This document shows, in pieces, positions 507 through 62,515 of a stretch of DNA of 64,000 nucleotides. The translations under genes and the position numbers were made by a program. Under the pieces are notes generated by a model, which did not search any database, was not told the origin of the DNA, and saw only the letters and a program-made list of their open reading frames with translations. The stretch is from NCBI RefSeq assembly GCF_000971195.1, contig NZ_BBLZ01000002.1, positions 1 to 64,000 of the forward strand, written 5' to 3'. How positions within the stretch are numbered: the first letter of the stretch is position 1; every line of letters begins with the position of its first letter. The stretch comes from Demequina soli. Its GTDB lineage: Bacteria; Actinomycetota; Actinomycetes; Actinomycetales; Demequinaceae.

Positions 507-1637
507 GTGGAAGCACACGGTCCGCACTCCGACGACGACCTCGTCAGGCTGCTCACCCATACCGGCGAGCGCGTCTCCCGCCCGGACTTCGACCGCTACG
601 CCGAGGACCTGGACGCGGCGACGCTGCGCGCGATGTGGCATGACATGTCGCTCACGCGCGCGTTCGACCTCGAGGCCACGAGCCTCCAGCGGCAGGGCGA
701 GCTGGGCCTGTGGGTCCAGTCGCTGGGGCAGGAGGCCGCGCAGATCGGCTCCGGCTACGCGATGAACGGGACCGACTTCGTGTTCCCGTCGTACCGCGAG
801 CACGGCGTCGCCTACACGCGCGGGGTGGACCTGCCCGAGATCCTGCGCATCTTCCGCGGCCTCCAGCACGGCGCGTGGGACCCCGAGGCGCACCGCTTCC
901 ACCTCTACACGCTCGTGATCGGCGCGCATTCGCTGCACGCGACGGGCTACGCGATGGCGATGGACCGCGACGGGCTCGTCGGCACCGGCGACCCCGAGCA
1001 CGACGGCGCGGTGGTCTGCTACTTCGGCGACGGCGCCACGAGCCAGGGCGACGTCAACGAGGCGATGGTGTTCGCCGCGGTCAACAACGCGCCCATCGTG
1101 TTCTTCGTGCAGAACAACCAGTTCGCGATCTCCGAGCCGGTCACCCGCCAGAGCCGCGTCCCGCTCGCGCAGCGCGGCGCCGGCTTCGGCATCCCGTTCG
1201 TGCGCGTCGACGGCAACGACGTGCTTGCGTGCTACGCGGTCACCCGCTGGGCCCTCGAGCGCGCGCGCTCGGGCGGCGGCCCCGTCCTCATCGAGGCCTT
1301 CACCTACCGCATGGGCGCCCACACCACCTCCGACGACCCGACCCGCTACCGCTCGCGCGCCGACGAGGACTTCTGGGCGGAGCGCGACCCCATCGCGCGC
1401 CTCGACGCATACCTCACCTCGCTGGGCGAGCTCGGGGACGATGCGCGGGAGGCCGTCGCGGTCGAGGCCAAGGAGCTGGGCCGCCGCACGCGCGAGACCG
1501 TCCGCTCGTGGGAGCGACCCGCGATGACCCGCATGTTCGAGCACGTCTACGCCGAGCCGCACGCGACCGTCGAGGCCGAGCGGGCGTGGTTCGAGCGCTA
1601 CGAGCGGTCCTTCGCGGACCAGGGGGTGCACGCATGA
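507..1637 (+). CDS. 2-oxoacid dehydrogenase E1 component, alpha subunit (branched-chain or pyruvate type)
   Basis: This 376-aa protein is the thiamine diphosphate-dependent decarboxylating subunit of a 2-oxoacid dehydrogenase complex; with the beta subunit it decarboxylates the oxoacid and passes the acyl group to E2 lipoate. The ThDP motif is visible as GDGATSQGDVNEA near residue 174, ending in NNQ near 203. The GTG at 507 is chosen because a GAAGGGAG ribosome site lies just upstream. It is first in an operon with E1 beta (4-base overlap) and E2. Sequence features do not separate pyruvate from branched-chain oxoacid substrates; no E3 is encoded beside it, as is common when one Lpd serves several complexes. 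Confidence 0.88.
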   Translation: MEAHGPHSDDDLVRLLTHTGERVSRPDFDRYAEDLDAATLRAMWHDMSLTRAFDLEATSLQRQGELGLWVQSLGQEAAQIGSGYAMNGTDFVFPSYREHGVAYTRGVDLPEILRIFRGLQHGAWDPEAHRFHLYTLVIGAHSLHATGYAMAMDRDGLVGTGDPEHDGAVVCYFGDGATSQGDVNEAMVFAAVNNAPIVFFVQNNQFAISEPVTRQSRVPLAQRGAGFGIPFVRVDGNDVLACYAVTRWALERARSGGGPVLIEAFTYRMGAHTTSDDPTRYRSRADEDFWAERDPIARLDAYLTSLGELGDDAREAVAVEAKELGRRTRETVRSWERPAMTRMFEHVYAEPHATVEAERAWFERYERSFADQGVHA

Positions 1638-6294: not shown

Positions 6295-8043
6295 CTAGGT
6301 CGTCGCGCCGGTGCCCGGCGGTCTCGCCGTGCGGGCGTGCACCTCGACCGCGGCGGGCTCCCGCGCATCGTCCCCGGTGCCCTCGCCCGACCCCTCGAGG
6401 GCGTGCTCGCCGTCGCGGAGCGTCTCGAGCCCGGACTTCTCGCGCAGCGGCAGCTGCGGCAGCATCAGCGCGAGCCCGAGCCCGAGGATCGAGAACATCG
6501 AGGAGAACAGGAGCACGCCGGTGATGGCGTCGGAGAAGCCCACGCGGAAGGGCTCGGCGAGCACGGGATCGATCTGCTGGAGGAACGACGTGTCGTCGAG
6601 CGACAGGCCCGACCCGGACGTCACGCCGCCCGCCTCGATCGCCTTGATCACGGCAGCGTCGGCGGGGTTCGCCAGCGTCGCGGGGTCGGAGACCACCTGC
6701 TGGAAGGCGGGCTCCTTGGCCGCGGCGGCGAAGGCGTTGCCGATGTCCGTCGGCGCGGCCGAGAACAGCATCGACAGGAACACGGCGGTGCCGAGCGAGC
6801 CCCCGATCTGCCGGAAGAACATCACCGACGCGGAGCCGGCGCCCATGTCGCGCGGCTCGACGGCGTTCTGTACCGCGAGCATGACGGGCTGCATGATCCC
6901 GCCGAGGCCGAGCCCGAACAGGAAGCCTCCCAGGCTCATGAGCCACAGCGAGCTGTCCGCCTGGAGCGTCGACAGCACCACGCCGGCGACCACGATGAGC
7001 GCCGCGCCCGCGACGGGGAACGGCTTGTAGCGGCCGGTGTTGCGGATGATCGGCGCGGAGCCGGTGGCCATCACCATGATGCCGAGGGTGAACGGCAGCA
7101 TCGCGAGGCCCGCGTCCGTGGGGCTCATGCCCTTCGCGATCTGCAGGTACAGCGGGATGCCGGCGAGGCCGCCGAACATCGCGAAGCCCATGACGAAGTT
7201 GAGGCCCGTCGAGGTGCCGACCGTCCGGTTGCGCAGCATGCGCAGGGGGAGCAGCGCATCGTCCCCGGCGGCCCGCTCGGCCAGGATGAACGCGACGATG
7301 CCCGCGGCGCTGAGCGCCGACAGCGCGACCACCGAGGTGGACGTCCATCCCCAGGTGCGGCCCTGCTCGACCACGATGAGCAGCGGGACGATCGCGACGA
7401 CGAGCGCGGCGGCGCCCCAGTAGTCGACGCGCACCGCGCGCGGGTGGCGCGGCACGTGCAGCACCCGCAGGATGACCACCAGCGCGATGAGCCCCAGCGG
7501 CACGTTCTGCAGGAAGATCCACCGCCAGCCGGCGAAGCCGAGCAGGTTCTGCGCGCTCGCGTAGAAGCCTCCCAGCACCGGCCCGAGCACGGACGCGATG
7601 CCCCATACGCCGAAGAAGGCGGCCTGGTACTTGGTGCGCTCGCGGGGGCTGAGGATGTCGCCGACGATGATGAGCGCGAGCGCCATCAGGCCGCCGGCGC
7701 CGAGGCCCTGCAGCCCGCGGTACGCGGCGAGCTGGTACATGTCCTGCGCGGTGCCGCACAGCAGCGAGCCGGTGATGAACAGGCTCAGCGAGATCACGTA
7801 CAGCGGCTTGCGCCCGAAGATGTCGGACAGCTTGCCGTACAGCGGCGTGGAGATGGTCGCGGCCACCAGGTAGGCGGTGGTGACCCAGGCCTGCAGCGTG
7901 AGGCCGTTGAGGTCGTCGCCGATGGTCCGGATCGCGGTGGCGACGATCATCTGGTCGAGCGCCGCGAGGAACATCCCGACGACGAGGCCGCCGACGATGA
8001 GGTTGATCTGGCGACGCTCCAGGAGGGGGTTCTGATCGGTCAT
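6295..8043 (-). CDS. MFS drug exporter, DHA2 (14-TM) family
   Basis: This 582-aa membrane protein is a proton-coupled exporter of the DHA2/EmrB-QacA type. Near the N-terminus are FLAALDQMIVATAIRTIGDD (the TM1 motif with the membrane-embedded Asp) and GKLSDIFGRKP (the MFS loop motif); a further GRLxG-type repeat is seen in the second half. A C-terminal cytosolic tail is rich in Glu and Gly. I start at the ATG at 8043 (MTDQNPLL), which has a GAAGAG-like ribosome site; the frame is open further upstream but that part is not membrane-like. No regulator is adjacent, so the substrate is unknown. Confidence 0.85.
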   Translation of the reverse strand: MTDQNPLLERRQINLIVGGLVVGMFLAALDQMIVATAIRTIGDDLNGLTLQAWVTTAYLVAATISTPLYGKLSDIFGRKPLYVISLSLFITGSLLCGTAQDMYQLAAYRGLQGLGAGGLMALALIIVGDILSPRERTKYQAAFFGVWGIASVLGPVLGGFYASAQNLLGFAGWRWIFLQNVPLGLIALVVILRVLHVPRHPRAVRVDYWGAAALVVAIVPLLIVVEQGRTWGWTSTSVVALSALSAAGIVAFILAERAAGDDALLPLRMLRNRTVGTSTGLNFVMGFAMFGGLAGIPLYLQIAKGMSPTDAGLAMLPFTLGIMVMATGSAPIIRNTGRYKPFPVAGAALIVVAGVVLSTLQADSSLWLMSLGGFLFGLGLGGIMQPVMLAVQNAVEPRDMGAGSASVMFFRQIGGSLGTAVFLSMLFSAAPTDIGNAFAAAAKEPAFQQVVSDPATLANPADAAVIKAIEAGGVTSGSGLSLDDTSFLQQIDPVLAEPFRVGFSDAITGVLLFSSMFSILGLGLALMLPQLPLREKSGLETLRDGEHALEGSGEGTGDDAREPAAVEVHARTARPPGTGATT

Positions 8044-11818: not shown

Positions 11819-12358
11819 GCATGTGGGCGCGCGGTGGACGGGCGGAGTCTGACGATCGAGTCTTGCGCCGGTGGTGCGACGCGAGTAGAAACGCCTCTAG
11901 CGAGATGGTGCGACGCGCGCCGCGGGGGACGTGAGAGCGTTCTCCGGAGGCCGTCGGACCCGCCGCGACGCCGGAGACGGCACGGGACGGGGGCGATGGC
12001 TGGCCCGTGCGTGCCTGATCGGATTCCTCGGACAACGGCGGTCCGCGTCCGCAGCTCCCTCGGGGGCGGTGGACCTGCGGGTGACGGCGCAGGGCACGAC
12101 GGGCCCGGGGGGTCGGCCGAGAGGACGTCGCCGCGTCGTGGCGCCCGCCCGCCGTGGTCTCTCGTGCATCAGGGCAAGGCCCCCCGGACCCGAATTCCGG
12201 GGGGCCTTCGCCGTGCCCGGGCCTGTGGACGATGCGCCGCGCACCCGGCGGGACGACGCGCCTTGCGCGTGGAGGGACGATGCGCGGTGCGCGTCGGGCG
12301 CCCGCCGGCCCGGCGCCGTGTCAGAATTTCCGCACGTGTGAAGGCGGAGGGTGGGGAC
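11819..12358 (+). other. Non-coding stretch ending in an orphan terminator; possible small RNA
   Basis: No convincing protein is encoded between the UGPase start and the DUF4190 gene. Open frames here lack a ribosome site and have Arg/Gly/Pro-rich shadow-like composition. The stretch holds a direct repeat GGTGCGACGCG (near 11872 and 11908), the hairpin at 12176-12208, and two copies of the GGACGATGC motif (12227, 12275). A plus-strand terminator without a gene before it suggests a transcript of about 350 nt. I looked for RNase P, tmRNA and SRP RNA signatures and did not see them. Confidence 0.3.
12176..12208 (+). terminator. Strong hairpin terminator without an obvious upstream gene
   Basis: AAGGCCCCCCGGA (12176-12188) pairs perfectly over 13 bp with TCCGGGGGGCCTT (12196-12208) around a 7-base loop. 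This A...GC-stem...TT shape matches the other terminators of this window (for example 15904-15927 and 54917-54950). Confidence 0.8.
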
Positions 12359-13244: not shown

Positions 13245-15304
13245 GTCCTTCGGGATTCTCGGGCGGTGCGGGCGCTCCGGCGCCCGCACCGCCCTCCCGC
13301 ATCACCGCCTATGTGGCCTCCATCGCGGGCCTGGGCATCACCTCGATCGCGCTGGTCTTCTTCGCGAGCCTGACGTCGCAGACGCTCACGCAGATTCCGG
13401 TGTGGACCACCGTGTTCCTCGCGGCCGCCGCGATCGCGGGCGAGGTCAAGCCGGTGCGCCTGCTGCGTGAGGACGGCGAAGAGCGCACGCTCTCGACGTC
13501 CGCGCCGTTCGTGCTTGCGCTGGTCCCGGTGGCCGGTGTCGCGATCGCCGTGGCAGCGCAGCTCGTCGCGAGCCTCGCCGACGACGTGCTGCACCGGCGA
13601 GAGGTGCGCAAGTCGCTGTTCAACTCGGCTCAGTACGCGCTGAGCGTCATCGCCGCACGCGCCGTGTACGCCTGGCTTGCGGGCGTCCCCTTCTTCGGCG
13701 GATCCACCGTGGTGACCGCCGACGACCTGTTGCCCCTTTTCGCCGCGGGCATCGCGATGATCGGCGTGAACTGGGTATTGGTGGCGGGCGTCGTCCGCCT
13801 GTCGACGGGCAACACGCTTGCGACGGTCCTCCGTGAGGACATCCGTGACCTCGCCCTGACCAACGTCGTCCTGCTCAGCGTCGGCGGTATCGCGGCGGTC
13901 GTCGCGTCGGATGGCACTGCGTTGCTCCTGCTGCTCGCGGCCCCCGTGGTCGCCGCGCACCTCTTCACGATGGCTGCCGCGCGCCACGCGCACGACGCGA
14001 CCCACGACTCCCTCACCGGCCTGCGCAACCGCGGCCAGCTGTACTACGAGCTCGATCGCGCCCTGGAGGCGCCCGCGGCGTACCCGTCGCTGGGCCCGGG
14101 CCTCGTGCTGCTCGACCTCGACCACTTCAAGGACTTCAACGACACGCTCGGCCACCCCGTGGGCGACGAGATCCTCCGCCAGGTGGGCACGCGCCTCGTC
14201 GAGGTCGCGCCCGAGTCCGCCTCCGTGCACCGCCTCGGCGGCGACGAGTTCGCGGTCGTGGTCCACGGCCCCGTCTCCGAGGCCCGCCGCGTCGCCGCCG
14301 ACCTCCTGTCCGCGCTGGACGCGCCGATCCGCATCGACGGGCTCGAGCTGCTCGTGCGGGCCAGCGCCGGCGTCGCGGTCGCCCCCGTGCACGGTGAGGA
14401 CGGCGAGACCCTGATGAAGAACGCCGACATCGCGCTCTACCACGCGAAGCTCGAGCGCGACCGCATCAGCACCTTCTCGCCCGAGTTCGACATCAACACC
14501 GTCGAGCGCCTGCGCCTGCTCGCCGACCTCCGCACCGCGCTCGACGCGAAGCAGCTGTACCTCGTGTACCAGCCGCAGGTCGCGATCGCCACGGGCGGCA
14601 TGGTGGGCGTCGAGGCGCTGATCCGCTGGCGTCACCCGGAGCGCGGTCTCGTGCGCGCGGACGAGTTCATCCCGCTCGCGGAGAACTCGGGGCTCATCTT
14701 CCCCCTCACCGCGTTCGTGCTGGACGAGTCGCTCGCGCAGGTCGCGCGCTGGCGCCGCCTCGGCCACGAGTTCCGCATCGCCGTCAACCTCTCGGCGCGC
14801 CACCTGTCGGACCAGGGCCTGCCGCAGCAGGTGGCGACGGCCCTCGCGCGCCACCGGGTCCCCGCATCGTCCCTGGTGCTCGAGGTGACCGAGACGGCGA
14901 TCCTGTCCGATCCCGCGCGCGCCGACCTGGTGCTGCGCGCGCTGCGCCGCCTGGGCGTGTCGATCGCGATCGACGACTACGGCACGGGCAACGCGTCCCT
15001 CAGCTACCTCAAGCGACTCGAGATCGACGAGCTCAAGATCGACCGCTCCTTCGTGAGCAACATCGGCGCCGACCACCACGACCTCATCATCGTGCGCTCG
15101 ACCATCGCCCTGGCGCTCGCGCTCGACCTGCGGGTGGTCGCCGAGGGAATCGAGGATGCGGCCACCGTCGACGAGCTCCGCGGGCTCGGCAGCGTGATCG
15201 GCCAGGGCTACCACCTGGGCATGCCGGTCCCGGCGGCGGAGATCGACGCGCTGCTCGCGACCGAGCCCAGCCCCGCCGACGCCGGCACCACCGAGAGGCC
15301 CTGA
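13241..15304 (+). CDS. Membrane-bound GGDEF-EAL cyclic di-GMP protein
   Basis: This 687-aa protein starts with about seven membrane segments (residues roughly 15-245), followed by a GGDEF diguanylate cyclase domain with an intact RLGGDEF near residue 332, and an EAL phosphodiesterase domain with intact EALIRW near residue 458, TETAILSD, DDYGTGNASLSYL and LKIDRSFV. Both catalytic signatures look complete, so synthesis and breakdown of c-di-GMP are both possible. The GTG at 13241 overlaps the stop of the small peptide and has no strong ribosome site of its own, which supports coupling. DUF5317 follows three bases after its stop, so the three genes form one operon. Confidence 0.88.
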   Translation: MSPSGFSGGAGAPAPAPPSRITAYVASIAGLGITSIALVFFASLTSQTLTQIPVWTTVFLAAAAIAGEVKPVRLLREDGEERTLSTSAPFVLALVPVAGVAIAVAAQLVASLADDVLHRREVRKSLFNSAQYALSVIAARAVYAWLAGVPFFGGSTVVTADDLLPLFAAGIAMIGVNWVLVAGVVRLSTGNTLATVLREDIRDLALTNVVLLSVGGIAAVVASDGTALLLLLAAPVVAAHLFTMAAARHAHDATHDSLTGLRNRGQLYYELDRALEAPAAYPSLGPGLVLLDLDHFKDFNDTLGHPVGDEILRQVGTRLVEVAPESASVHRLGGDEFAVVVHGPVSEARRVAADLLSALDAPIRIDGLELLVRASAGVAVAPVHGEDGETLMKNADIALYHAKLERDRISTFSPEFDINTVERLRLLADLRTALDAKQLYLVYQPQVAIATGGMVGVEALIRWRHPERGLVRADEFIPLAENSGLIFPLTAFVLDESLAQVARWRRLGHEFRIAVNLSARHLSDQGLPQQVATALARHRVPASSLVLEVTETAILSDPARADLVLRALRRLGVSIAIDDYGTGNASLSYLKRLEIDELKIDRSFVSNIGADHHDLIIVRSTIALALALDLRVVAEGIEDAATVDELRGLGSVIGQGYHLGMPVPAAEIDALLATEPSPADAGTTERP

Positions 15305-15306
15305 CG

Positions 15307-15876
15307 ATGCTCGTGATGGCCGCGTGCCTGCTCGCCGTCCTGTCCCCGTTGGTCGCCCTGCGCTGGCCGGCCGGGCTGCTGCTGCGCCGCTGGCGCCTGC
15401 CCGTCCTCATCTGGGGTGCGCTGCTCGCGCAGATCATCATCATCGACGTGCCGCTGCCCGAGGCCCTCGCGCCCGTCCTGCACCTCGCGACCTACGCGGC
15501 CGCGCTCGCGTTCCTGTGGCTCAACCGCGCCGTGCGCGGCGTGCTGGTCGTGGCGGCGGGGGCGATCTCGAACGGCGTCACGATCGCGCTCAACGGCGGC
15601 GTGCTCCCGGCCAGCGCCGCCGCGACGGCCGCCGCGGGCATCGACCCCGAGCACGCGTTCGCCAACACGGCGGTGATGGACCACCCGGTGCTGCCGTGGC
15701 TGGGCGACGTGTTCGCGTGGCCCGAGCCGCTGCCGCTCGCCAACACCTTCAGCATCGGCGACCTGCTCATCGTCGTCGGCGTCGCGCTCGTCGCGTGGTC
15801 GGGTACCCGCCCGCTGCGCGGCGGCTCCGTCGAGCCCGCGGGGGACGATGCGCCCCTCGCCGCCGCGGACCGGTGA
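15307..15876 (+). CDS. DUF5317 family membrane protein
   Basis: This 189-aa protein has about five hydrophobic segments and the DUF5317 pattern: RWPAGLLLRRWRLPVLIWGA, then SNGVTIALNGGVLPAS with the conserved Asn-Gly-Gly, then LANTFSIGDLLIVVGV near the C-terminus. Its function is unknown. It starts directly after the GGDEF-EAL stop and is probably co-transcribed. In actinobacteria such proteins are often found beside signalling membrane proteins, which fits this position. Confidence 0.75.
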   Translation: MLVMAACLLAVLSPLVALRWPAGLLLRRWRLPVLIWGALLAQIIIIDVPLPEALAPVLHLATYAAALAFLWLNRAVRGVLVVAAGAISNGVTIALNGGVLPASAAATAAAGIDPEHAFANTAVMDHPVLPWLGDVFAWPEPLPLANTFSIGDLLIVVGVALVAWSGTRPLRGGSVEPAGDDAPLAAADR

Positions 15877-15893
15877 CCGCGCGCATCGTCCCC
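15841..15893 (+). terminator. Inverted pair of the dispersed motif at the end of the DUF5317 gene
   Basis: GGGGACGATGCGC (15841-15853) and GCGCATCGTCCCC (15881-15893) are perfect 13-bp inverted copies of the dispersed motif around a 27-base loop that contains the stop codon. They could fold as a hairpin in the mRNA just before the canonical terminator at 15904. Confidence 0.6.
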
Positions 15894-15903
15894 TGACACG
15901 CGG

Positions 15904-15927
15904 AAGGCCCCTCCGAGGAGGGGCCTT
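15904..15927. terminator. Bidirectional terminator between DUF5317 and tRNA-Gly
   Basis: AAGGCCCCTC (15904-15913) pairs with GAGGGGCCTT (15918-15927) around a short loop. It lies between a plus-strand gene and a minus-strand tRNA and can serve both. Confidence 0.8.
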
Positions 15928-15935
15928 CGTCGACG

Positions 15936-16006
15936 AGCGGGTGACGGGAATCGAACCCGCGCTATCAGCTTGGGAAGCTGAAGTTCTGCCATTGAACTAC
16001 ACCCGC
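15936..16006 (-). tRNA. tRNA-Gly (anticodon CCC)
   Basis: The reverse strand folds into a 71-nt cloverleaf without encoded CCA: acceptor GCGGGTG (16006-16000) with CACCCGC, D-stem GTTC/GAAC, anticodon stem TCAGC/GCTGA enclosing the loop TTCCCAA (anticodon CCC), and a T-arm with loop TTCGATT. It reads GGG codons. A terminator follows at 15904-15927. Confidence 0.95.
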
Positions 16007-16088
16007 GTGCGCCGCCCTGCGGCGCTGCGAGTCCCATTCTAGGGGGTCGTCGCGGGCTGTCCGCCACCGCCGCGCGGCCCGACCGGGA

Positions 16089-17003
16089 TCAGCGCTGCGC
16101 CGTCGCCGCGATGGCGAACGAGGCCTCCACGGTCGCCCCGGGCTCGATGACGAACAGCCCCGTGCCCTCGACGCCGTGCGCCTCGAGCGTGAACGCGTCG
16201 TTGGCGTGGGAGACGGGCTCGAGCGCGAAGAAGTCCTTGCCCGGCGGGATGTAGAGCACTGCGTGGGACAGCAGCGCGTCGGCGGTGATGTCGAGGGTGA
16301 GCGCGCCCGGGTACTCGATCGTCGCGAGGTGCTCCCCGGTGCGGCCCGTGAGGCAGTCGTCCACGAACGCCTCGCCGAGGGGGCGTCGGACCGTGAAGTC
16401 CGCGTGCTCCGGGATCGGGCCCGCGGCCTCGCTCGGCATCATGTTCTCGAGCGCGTAGGCGCGCGTGCACGCGAGCTCCAGCTCGCCCTCGCCCGAGCCT
16501 GCCACGGTGCGCAGGAAGAACGGGTGGTGGCCGAACCCGGCGGGGAACGGCTCCTCGTCGACGTTCTCGATCGCGTAGGTCCACACGAAGCGCTCGTCCT
16601 CGAGCGCGAACGTGAAGCGCGCGATGAAGGTCCACGGCCAGTTCACGCCGAAGAAGTCGCGCGAGTCGAACTCCAGCACCACGCGGTCGCCGGTGTTCTC
16701 GAGCACCTCCCACGGGTACTCCCAGCCGGCGCCGTGGATCGCGGTGCCGTCGGGCCAGTTGACGCGGAGCGCGTACTGGGCGCCGTCCCACTGGAGCCGG
16801 CCGTCGCGGATCCGGTTGGACCAGGGCACGAGCGGGTACGACGCGGTCTCGGACGCGGTGGTCAGGTCGGCGGCCGACGTGGGCCGCATGACGTCGGCCC
16901 AGTCGTTGCCGATGCGGACCTGCCCGTAGGTCACGGCGCCGCCGGTGCCGGGCGCGAGACCGACGCGCCAGTGCTGATTCTCGATCGTCAGGAGCTCGGG
17001 CAT
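16089..17003 (-). CDS. Aldose 1-epimerase family protein
   Basis: This 304-aa protein resembles galactose mutarotase-like epimerases: LVPWSNRIRDGRLQWDG near residue 60, AIHGAGWEYPWEV with the first active-site-type His, and FGHHPFFLR near residue 165 with the second His pair. A glutamate near the end (LEPVSHANDAFTLE) sits where the family's catalytic acid is expected. The open frame extends to 17093 but the ATG at 17003 starts the conserved domain (MPELLTIENQHW). It interconverts anomers of hexoses or hexose phosphates; the exact sugar is unknown. Confidence 0.85.
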   Translation of the reverse strand: MPELLTIENQHWRVGLAPGTGGAVTYGQVRIGNDWADVMRPTSAADLTTASETASYPLVPWSNRIRDGRLQWDGAQYALRVNWPDGTAIHGAGWEYPWEVLENTGDRVVLEFDSRDFFGVNWPWTFIARFTFALEDERFVWTYAIENVDEEPFPAGFGHHPFFLRTVAGSGEGELELACTRAYALENMMPSEAAGPIPEHADFTVRRPLGEAFVDDCLTGRTGEHLATIEYPGALTLDITADALLSHAVLYIPPGKDFFALEPVSHANDAFTLEAHGVEGTGLFVIEPGATVEASFAIAATAQR

Positions 17004-17537: not shown

Positions 17538-17615
17538 GCGTCCGGCGCGGCGTCCCTCGTGCGGGTGTCGGAGCCCGGACGTAGCCTGTCCTCGTCCGCA
17601 ACCCGGGGAGGGATC

Positions 17616-18068
17616 ATGGCCACCGTCTCGACATACCTCAACTTCGACGGCACCTGCGAGGAGGCGTTCGCCTTCTACAAGGACGTGTTCGGCGGGGAGT
17701 ACGTGGCGCCGCCGCAGAAGATGCGCGACGTGCCACGCCCGCCCGAGGCGCCGCCGCTGTCGGACGACGAGGGCAACCGGATCATGCACGTGGCGCTCGC
17801 GACCGTCGGTGGCCACCAGATCATGGGCACCGACATCATGCCCTCCATGGGGCACACCCTGACCACGGGCAACGCGATGTCGATCAACCTCGAGCTCGAT
17901 GACGAGGAGACGCTGCGCGAGATCCACGAGAAGCTGTCGGAGGGCGCCGCCGAGAGCTACGGCCCGCAGGCCGAGTTCTGGGGGCAGCTCTTCGCGACCT
18001 GCGCGGACCGGTACGGCATCCGCTGGATGATGGTCTCGCCGCTGGACGAGGGCACGGGGCTGGCGTAG
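17616..18068 (+). CDS. PhnB-like VOC (glyoxalase-fold) protein
   Basis: This 150-aa protein begins MATVSTYLNFDGTCEEAFAF, typical of PhnB/3-demethylubiquinone methyltransferase-like VOC proteins, continues with FYKDVFGGEY, GHQIMGTDIMPS and NLELDDEETLREI, and ends with FGxxxCADRYGIRWM-type residues (LFATCADRYGIRWMM). The ATG at 17616 has a GGGGAGGG ribosome site. Such proteins bind metals or small ligands, and their reactions are mostly unknown. Confidence 0.85.
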   Translation: MATVSTYLNFDGTCEEAFAFYKDVFGGEYVAPPQKMRDVPRPPEAPPLSDDEGNRIMHVALATVGGHQIMGTDIMPSMGHTLTTGNAMSINLELDDEETLREIHEKLSEGAAESYGPQAEFWGQLFATCADRYGIRWMMVSPLDEGTGLA

Positions 18069-19428: not shown

Positions 19429-19816
19429 GCCACCTGTTCAACCGGCTGACGCGGGCGGTTCTTCCGCGGCGTCGCGTCGGTACTGGCGCCTCTGCCACCC
19501 TACGCCCGCGCGCATCGTCCCCGGTCCGGCGCCCGCCGCCCGCTGCGACCGTCCCCCACACGCGATCTGCACTTCGCGACGCGGTGGTCGCGCTTCGCAC
19601 CGCGAAGTGCAGGACGGGAGCGCTCCCATCCGAGTGCGAGTGTGGAGCGAGGTCGGGGCGAGGGGCCGGCGTTGCCACGGGACGATGCGCGGCGTACGGT
19701 GGTCCCGGCGCGCCGCGAGGGTCGGCGCCGAGGAGGAACGTTGGAGCTGTAGGGATGCCGGACCACGCGTCTGGCCACAGGTCTCATCCACCTTCCAGAC
19801 CCCTGCGGAGCCTCCC
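19429..19816. other. Divergent intergenic region before the ABC-F gene
   Basis: The 388-base gap holds repeat copy B, two copies of the GGACGATGC motif in opposite orientation (19512 minus, 19680 plus) and the promoters of two divergent genes. ABC-F genes of this kind are often controlled by leader peptides; I looked for a short ORF with a ribosome site and did not find a convincing one. Confidence 0.5.
19547..19654. repeat. Intergenic TIR element, copy B
   Basis: It starts GACCGTCCCCCACACGC and ends GTGTGGAGCGAGGTC. CTGCACTTCGCG (19568-19579) and CGCGAAGTGCAG (19601-19612) form a perfect 12-bp inner stem enclosing GTGGTCGCGCTTCGC. It is the only copy located between divergent genes. Confidence 0.75.
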
Positions 19817-57594: not shown

Positions 57595-57642
57595 AGGGAC
57601 TTGCGAGGGGACGATGCGCGGGCCGGGCGGGCGCCGGAGGCG

Positions 57643-60610: not shown

Positions 60611-61744
60611 TCAGGCGGGCAGGTCGCCGCCGTCGGCCGCGCAGCCCTTGCCCATGAGGAGGCCCTTCATGGTCGGGCCCGGCTTGGGCGGGCGGTCCTC
60701 GGAGAAGCCGTCCGCGTTGACGATGAGCTCCTGCGCGGCGGCGACAGGGCCGCCGTCGGTGGGCACCGTCAGGGTCGAGGACGGGTCGACGGAGCGCTTG
60801 AGGATCGCGAGCGCGATGGGCCCGAGCTCGTGGTGGCGCGCGACGGAGGTCACGCGGCCGACCTCGGCCCCGCCCAGCAGCACGGGCGAGCCGGGCGCGG
60901 GCAGCGAGTGCTCGGAGCCGTCGAGGTGGAGCATCGTGAGGCGGCGCGGCGGCCGGCCGACGTTGTGGACCTTCGCGACCGTCTCCTGGCCCCGGTAGCA
61001 GCCCTTGTGCAGGTGCACCGCGGTCCGCAGCCAGTCGAGCTCGTGCGGCAGCGAGTGGTCGTCGACCTCGCGCGCGGCGCGGGGACGATGCGCGGCGATC
61101 CTCACGGCCTCCGTCGCCCAGGTGCCCGCGAGGGTCCAGCCGGCGTCGACGCGCGCCTGGATCTCGTCGCCGAGCGTGGCGCGGGGCACGAGCACGATCC
61201 GCCAGGGGCGCACGGTCGCGGACAGCGCCGCCGGGTCCGCGGCGTAGGACGTGCCGCCGGCGGTGACGCCGGGCCACGGATCCACCCACGTGACCGGCTC
61301 CCCGTCGCTCGCGGGACGTGCGACGGCCTCGCCGATCGCCGCCCACTCCTCGGACGCATCGTCCACCTCGACGCGCAGCATGAAGCGCATGCGGTCCAGG
61401 AACGCGGCGAGCGCCGCGGGCGTCTCGGTGAGGAGCCACGCGGTCGTGCCGTCGTCGACCAGGCCGGCGACGTGCTCGACGCGGCCCTGCGGCGACAGGA
61501 TCATCAGCTCGGCGGACTCGCCGGGCGCGAGGCCCGCGACGGACTGCGTGCAGAGGGAGTCGAGCCACGTGAGCCGGTCGGGGCCGGTGACGGTGACGAC
61601 GCCGAGGTGCGACTGGTCGGACACGGCGCGGCCCTCCTCGAGGGCGCGCTGCTCCGCCGTCGGGTCGCCGTAGTGCCAGGCGACGCCCGCGTCGGGGCCG
61701 AGGCCCGCGACGGCGCCGTGAAGGTCGAGCAGGGGGGAGGTCAT
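60611..61744 (-). CDS. ygfZ: YgfZ-type folate-binding protein
   Basis: This 377-aa protein is related to the glycine cleavage T-protein and is needed for some iron-sulfur enzymes in studied bacteria. The signature KGCYRGQETVAKV (residues about 236-248) is intact, with the conserved Cys. VSDQSHLGVVTVTGPDRLTWL near residue 42 and PQGRVEHV are also typical. It is followed by the dtd/DUF2516 pair and preceded by the nitrobindin-like gene. Confidence 0.9.
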   Translation of the reverse strand: MTSPLLDLHGAVAGLGPDAGVAWHYGDPTAEQRALEEGRAVSDQSHLGVVTVTGPDRLTWLDSLCTQSVAGLAPGESAELMILSPQGRVEHVAGLVDDGTTAWLLTETPAALAAFLDRMRFMLRVEVDDASEEWAAIGEAVARPASDGEPVTWVDPWPGVTAGGTSYAADPAALSATVRPWRIVLVPRATLGDEIQARVDAGWTLAGTWATEAVRIAAHRPRAAREVDDHSLPHELDWLRTAVHLHKGCYRGQETVAKVHNVGRPPRRLTMLHLDGSEHSLPAPGSPVLLGGAEVGRVTSVARHHELGPIALAILKRSVDPSSTLTVPTDGGPVAAAQELIVNADGFSEDRPPKPGPTMKGLLMGKGCAADGGDLPA

Positions 61745-62449: not shown

Positions 62450-62515
62450 GCGCCGAGTGTATGCCGGGACCCAGGTCCCGTTCCACGCCCCGGCGGTGGG
62501 GGACGATGCGCCGGC

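Follow-up and report, generated by a model that had tools for sequence, protein, structure and literature searches.

The available literature describes uptake sequences from two Gram-negative families (PMC3630211, PMC1852404, PMC2346458). According to the parts of these papers that were accessible, the DUS of Neisseriaceae occurs in about 1,500 copies (PMC2346458), or in 2,245-3,269 copies in some species, with dialects around a constant core that follow phylogeny and with inverted pairs that are linked with terminators (PMC3630211; PMC1852404). Tail-to-tail regions are enriched and same-direction neighbours are rare in Neisseria (Kingsford et al., PMC1852404), and opposite-strand neighbours are in excess for the USS of H. 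influenzae (PMC1852404). The USS of Pasteurellaceae is dense on both strands, without general orientation bias, and below expectation in coding DNA (PMC2346458). Among actinobacteria, Micrococcus luteus is described in the accessible text as naturally transformable, with ComEA and ComEC and with Tad/Flp pili (PMC6370729). In the accessible portions of the papers returned by a literature search (including PMC12236230 and PMC12616744), no uptake sequence is reported for Demequina or for any other actinomycete, and a search on natural competence or uptake sequences in Demequina found none either.

We analysed a stretch of 64,000 nucleotides from Demequina soli (the window), in which a gene for a DUF5317 protein (15307..15876, plus strand; PF17248, E 3.3e-24) ends with the stop codon TGA at 15874-15876. 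A motif search located an exact copy of the 13-base motif GGGGACGATGCGC within the 3' end of this ORF (15841..15853, plus strand) and a second exact copy on the minus strand at 15881..15893, which is the fifth to 17th base past the stop codon. Both arms, the 27-base loop and the enclosed stop codon were found exactly where the first-pass annotation had placed them. RNA folding predicted that the inverted pair forms a hairpin (15839..15895, plus strand) whose loop contains a short stem of its own, and the stretch 15838-15896 showed a folding energy of -41.2 kcal/mol (z -4.70) on the plus strand and -39.2 kcal/mol (z -3.86) on the minus strand. Between the DUF5317 gene and its convergent neighbour, a tRNA-Gly (CCC) gene at 15935..16006 on the minus strand, folding and a terminator scan revealed a second, perfect hairpin of 11 pairs with a loop of 4 (15903..15928, plus strand; -27 kcal/mol for the stretch 15896-15936). 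This hairpin had been annotated as a canonical terminator, a label left unconfirmed because it lacks a T run and scanning 15200-16200 gave no T-run terminator.

The motif is non-palindromic, with the core GGACGATGCG and the full form GGGGACGATGCGC, from which the base profile fades outward. Exact copies of GGACGATGCG numbered 35 in the window against 0.88 expected (order-3 model), and genome-wide we counted 185 copies of the 13-mer GGGGACGATGCGC against 0 of the reversed control and 707 copies of the 11-mer against 3 reversed. In 464 kb, we found the core CGCATCGTCC 249 times where 12.6 were expected, and the 13-mer GCGCATCGTCCCC 62 times where 0.43 was expected (order-4 model), so that enrichment rises with word length. 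These counts bear out the proposal that the pair is part of a real, extended and dispersed motif of at least 13 bp. Apart from the pair, exact 13-base copies lie in the window at 1434..1446, 57607..57619, 61081..61093 and 62499..62511 on the plus strand and at 6363..6375, 7254..7266 and 19510..19522 on the minus strand. The window also holds a noncoding direct pair of the 10-mer core on the plus strand (12227..12284; cores at 12227-12236 and 12275-12284) with a one-mismatch copy of GACGATGCGC between the cores (12252-12261). Within 848.6 kb, consisting of the window and 40 further stretches of which 20 were picked after a hit list was known, there were 434 exact 10-mers (0.51 per kb, approximately one per 2 kb), which extrapolates to roughly 1,500 in the genome; counts per 20-kb grid stretch had a mean of 9.7 and a variance of 14.1 (19 stretches). 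As for uptake sequences, this is a short non-palindromic word whose copy number, in the hundreds to thousands, greatly exceeds chance.

In the same sample, 298 of the 434 sites were coding and 136 (31%) were not wholly coding. The latter fell in 9.1% of the sequence, a 3.5-fold intergenic enrichment by gene calls that came from a simple hexamer script and not from a standard gene finder. Enrichment was likewise 3.5-fold in G023 (30% of sites not wholly coding), 2.4-fold in G010 and 2.7-fold in G015 with its own word. Coding sites used set frames, mostly xxG GAC GAT GCG and xxC GCA TCG TCC. A codon or amino-acid repeat (Asp-Asp-Ala) was rejected because the intergenic density is higher and several frames are in use.

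Close neighbours of the motif are predominantly inverted in this genome. At spacers of 0-30, the 10-mer core formed 34 convergent and 17 divergent pairs, that is 51 inverted versus 3 direct (binomial p 1.5e-12 for equal odds), while an even spread at the given site density would yield about 12 inverted and about 12 direct pairs. The check named in the first-pass annotation, a look for other inverted pairs in the genome, therefore came out in its favour, and the excess of close inverted over direct pairs is of the kind found for uptake sequences. The 848.6-kb sample had given 16 inverted and 3 direct pairs within 60 bp; as 20 of its stretches were chosen after the hit list, it is superseded by the whole-genome counts. 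Summed over 15 genomes, there were 290 convergent and 224 divergent pairs, i.e. 514 inverted versus 338 direct. Two genomes, G020 (111) and G027 (78), contributed 189 of the 338 direct pairs, and without them 479 inverted pairs stood against 149 direct ones. Inverted and direct pairs numbered 18 to 26 in G017, 21 to 111 in G020 and 14 to 78 in G027, and G022, with 3 and 2, had too few to tell. Within 60 bp the ratio was 2 to 5 in a 400-kb sample of G015, 2 to 3 in G010 and 4 to 2 in G023. G017, G020, G027 and the sample of G015, a genome with the C dialect described below, lack an inverted excess, so only some of the genomes with the motif of D. soli show one. In G020, motif copies recur every 17 bp in short tandem arrays, several of them among the direct pairs listed, and another genome, G004, carries four copies with the same step of 17 bp (C1:3003501-3003562), though the 11-mer occurs there only 40 times.

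When 84,980 species genomes were scanned for inverted 11-mer pairs, at least 109 stretches came up, of which 97 were from Demequina and 12 from other organisms. Among the matches listed were three inverted 11-mer pairs on two contigs (L177, L206) of an uncultured Saprospiraceae MAG, which are perhaps misbinned contigs or an unrelated use of the word. The 97 Demequina stretches were selected for containing a pair, and the statements on them in this and the next paragraph hold among the matches listed. With 5 pairs set aside for lying less than 300 bases from the end of their stretch and 3 for not being flanked by called genes on each side, 90 convergent pairs could be scored, 8 of them coding and 82 noncoding. 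Spacers of the paired 11-mers peaked at 8, 14 and 16 bases (17, 15 and 17 of 90). Compared with these other Demequina pairs, the DUF5317 pair is atypical in its spacer, which was equalled or exceeded in 7 of 90 pairs, and in its place, as its 5' arm begins inside the ORF: the 5' arm started before the stop codon in only 2 of 85 pair-to-gene cases.

The pairs might be selected as transcription terminators or as stabilisers of RNA 3' ends, which would make the motif chiefly a terminator element. Of the 82 noncoding pairs, 49 were located within 40 bp of a stop codon against a background of 22.5% (p 4e-13), and 4 had a start codon within that distance against a background of 26.8%; the 5' arm started 0-30 nt past the stop codon in 68 of 85 pair-to-gene cases; and 50 of the 95 strong hairpins detected after 677 genes contained the motif core, in listed stretches that were chosen for holding a pair. 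Pairs of D. soli itself showed a similar placement: 29 of the 34 convergent pairs were scored with context, 27 were noncoding or at an edge, and 14 lay within 40 bp of a stop codon and 4 of a start codon, compared with 23% and 30%, respectively, of all intergenic positions. The expectation that inverted pairs at gene 3' ends exceed background was thus borne out, but single intergenic sites share most of this preference, with 35 of 78 near a stop codon and 16 of 78 near a start codon in the same listed stretches (47 and 29 of 106 in D. soli). Pairs and singles differed at p 0.08 for stops and at p 0.004 for starts, pairs avoiding starts more. No T tail followed the pairs among the matches listed (T 19% versus 16% background; tails with at least 5 T in 8 in 2 of 85 versus 3 of 244), and the hairpin plus T run of an intrinsic (Rho-independent) terminator was seen neither at 15200-16200 of the window nor, above background, at the pairs of the 97 listed stretches. 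With most sites of the own-genome sample in coding sequence and a pair excess in part of the genomes only, we regard selection for termination as an unlikely origin of the motif. Of the suggestion that the pairs act as terminators, the preference for gene ends, as in Neisseria, stood; the terminator role itself is the weaker part, given the missing T tail, the similar preference of single sites and the separate hairpin at 15903-15928.

The 11-mer was present in 120-884 copies in 15 of 41 Demequina genomes and in 1-52 copies in the other 26. Two genomes of a sister genus had 5 and 6 copies, and no more than 24 were counted in any of 360 genomes from other families of the order, the word being abundant in none of these. 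We refer to the motif of D. soli as the A word and to GGCCGATGCG as the C word. Most relatives without the A word carry one-base dialects, either GGCCGATGCG, which reaches 1,203 copies, or GGCCGAYGCT, which reaches 762. Such one-base variants were among the top words in 40 kb each of G002, G015 and G029 (GGCCGATGCG), G005 (GGCCGATGCT) and G007 (GGGCCGATGC), and G034 has the variant ACAGCGTCGG, i.e. CCGACGCTGT, with 9 copies of ACAGCGTCGG against 0.14 expected in 40 kb. Whole-genome counts of GGCCGATGCG were 1,203 in G015 (21 reversed), 1,056 in G038, 1,005 in G002, 864 in G029 and 862 in G001, with 16-35 reversed, and 210 versus 38 reversed in D. soli. Those of GGCCGAYGCT were 762 in G005 (28 reversed), 366 in G031 and 308 in G034, with 28-33 reversed. 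The part that stays constant is approximately CGATGC in the A and C words and CGACGC in G034. G017 had about as many copies of the A 11-mer (520) as of the C 10-mer GGCCGATGCG (483), which might reflect a receptor tolerating both words or an ongoing change of dialect. At least one recognised word was present in 33 of the 41 genus genomes, by thresholds set once the counts were known; G004, G007, G011, G012, G025, G032, G036 and G040 had a weaker signal or no recognised word, and a search for dialect words in 40-80 kb of G004, G011, G025, G040 and G041 recognised none.

In a species tree of 24 genomes based on eight housekeeping proteins, one clade holds 10 of the 11 A genomes, and the three C genomes fall together with G005 and G007, the CT pair. 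The place of D. soli inside the A clade is weakly supported (0.205), and G027, which has the A word, stands apart from the other A genomes beside G004 and G040, in which no word was recognised. Dialects with a constant core thus largely follow phylogeny, as they do for uptake sequences, with G027 out of place. A word that is dense and genome-wide could also be bound, and thus favoured by selection or protected, by a nucleoid, methylation or restriction system, and dialects could then track a changing DNA-binding protein. A long word with fading edges and inverted pairs at gene ends fits known uptake sequences better, and we consider such a binding site improbable.

Sites are found in and between genes and on both strands without replication bias, again as for uptake sequences. 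Across 20 evenly spaced stretches of G015, 92 sites lay on one strand and 94 on the other, and their strand did not change at the points where that of the genes does; the contigs of D. soli were near balance (largest tilt 20 to 11, on C16). Chi-like or chromosome-orienting signals (RecBCD/AdnAB hot spots, KOPS) also vary between species, and the motif resembles them in being short, non-palindromic, of high copy number and G-rich at its 5' end. Because the strands are balanced, we rejected such a signal, which the intergenic enrichment and the inverted pairs also make very unlikely.

Orthologous positions aligned mostly without gaps. Comparison of 64 coding A sites with C genomes (143 comparisons) gave 8% gapped positions, no identical word and 2% with the dialect word, and among A genomes 27% of 530 ortholog comparisons retained the same word and 13% were gapped. 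These comparisons, which are not mutually independent, left out sites interrupted by gaps in their own row, orthologs with an identity below 55% or a coverage below 70%, and genes represented in fewer than 6 genomes. The patterns fit a gain and loss of sites that would have proceeded by substitution. In the DUF5317 ortholog of D. gelatinilytica (L150), the place of the 5' arm aligns gap-free and differs by substitutions, and neither arm is present; because the sequence past the stop codon is not syntenic and its alignment unreliable, the absence of the second arm says little on its origin. REP/BIME elements are palindromes some 20-40 nt long that occur exclusively in intergenic DNA, and a REP/BIME- or MITE-like mobile repeat, to which perfect palindromic copies (e.g. 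two in L001) and the many direct pairs of G020 and G027 might point, was rejected as barely credible because of the large share of coding sites in set frames and the mostly gap-free orthologs, the unit being only 10-13 bp long and mostly single. The two perfect motif palindromes of L001 lie at 17573-17594 and 17750-17771, 177 bp apart.

Pilus and competence genes were named by their Pfam matches, except for PilN and PilO, which were assigned solely by their place in the operon. D. soli encodes PilB, PilT, PilC, PilD, PilM and further operon ORFs at one locus (L047), including two short proteins with a prepilin motif (147 and 150 aa) and two ORFs at the PilN and PilO positions, and ComEA and ComEC at another (L067). 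Genes for a type IV pilus, ComEA and ComEC are present in the same genome, as in hosts of uptake sequences. Across the family, ComEC was found in 43 of 43 genomes and PilM in 42 of 43, and both also occur in the 8 of 41 genomes with a weak or no recognised dialect. Sister genomes G010 and G014, which share their word, are 99% identical in LepA and 98% in AroC, but only 44% in each of PilM and PilD; between G006 and G008, PilM is 47% identical. Over the pilus-operon loci L047-L066, PilM was 44-47% identical between sister species and nearby AroC 96-98%, as if operon alleles had been swapped. A search by similarity among the pilus-operon proteins for a receptor that tracks the dialect found none, as PilM and PilD do not follow dialect and the pilins are too diverged to compare throughout, and picking a receptor from this operon by similarity was rejected on that ground. 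The same word alongside 44% identity in PilM and PilD implies that the pilus operon does not define the dialect, or that different pilins read one word. This mismatch between operon versions and dialect is the main gap in the uptake reading.

Taken together, we think it probable that the motif is an uptake sequence of naturally transformable Demequina and an independent system in an actinomycete. We infer that a competence receptor would prefer DNA tagged with the motif, so that tagged DNA would enter cells and recombine at a higher rate, and point changes together with recombination would let the tag accumulate throughout the genome (molecular drive). The pair at 15841-15893 would then be two tags that arose and were kept at a gene end, where their hairpin may be harmless or may be useful as an RNA 3'-end or termination structure. 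We are evenly divided on a more specific proposal, namely that Demequina practises self-DNA recognition with species dialects that evolved in a monoderm apart from Neisseriaceae and Pasteurellaceae, with specificity residing outside the swappable pilus operon in another putative receptor (ComEA, ComEC or a pilin encoded elsewhere). If the uptake reading is true, this would be a third, unrelated origin of uptake sequences, new for this branch of life, and graded dialects over some 40 sequenced species might reveal how such words arise and drift. It would raise the questions whether a pilus or a membrane receptor reads the words and whether hairpins formed by pairs at gene ends have been put to use or are a by-product, and it would predict which DNA can transform Demequina.

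Because the defining property of DUS and USS is raised uptake, membership is put forward here at the level of sequence and not as proven; in most features tested, the motif resembles the uptake sequences of both families. The likeness to Haemophilus and Neisseria that the first-pass annotation had drawn held for the inverted excess in D. soli, and it gains from features that lay beyond its view, namely the dialects that largely follow phylogeny, the mostly gap-free turnover, the strand balance and the co-occurrence of pilus genes with ComEA and ComEC, but the pair excess is patchy. Micrococcus luteus is likewise an actinobacterial host with ComEA and ComEC, but the accessible text on it describes Tad/Flp pili and demonstrated competence and mentions no uptake sequence, whereas the type IV pilus operon of Demequina is of the PilB-PilT-PilC-PilM kind and the genus is known here from genes and sequence. 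Compared with the Pasteurellaceae USS (AAGTGCGGT; Apl type), which has an A/T-rich extension, the Demequina word is unrelated in sequence, G+C-rich throughout and found in a monoderm host; like the USS, as far as it is covered by the accessible sources, it is dense on both strands, depleted in coding DNA and shows, in part of the genomes, an excess of opposite-strand neighbours. The Neisseriaceae DUS (GCCGTCTGAA and dialects, with ComP as receptor) differs from the Demequina word, which is unrelated in sequence and belongs to a Gram-positive actinomycete, with pairs that lack a T tail, a pair excess in only part of the genomes and no ComP-like receptor found among the operon proteins. Both systems nevertheless have in common, by the accessible descriptions of the DUS, a non-palindromic word of 10-13 bp, dialects with a constant core, and inverted pairs.
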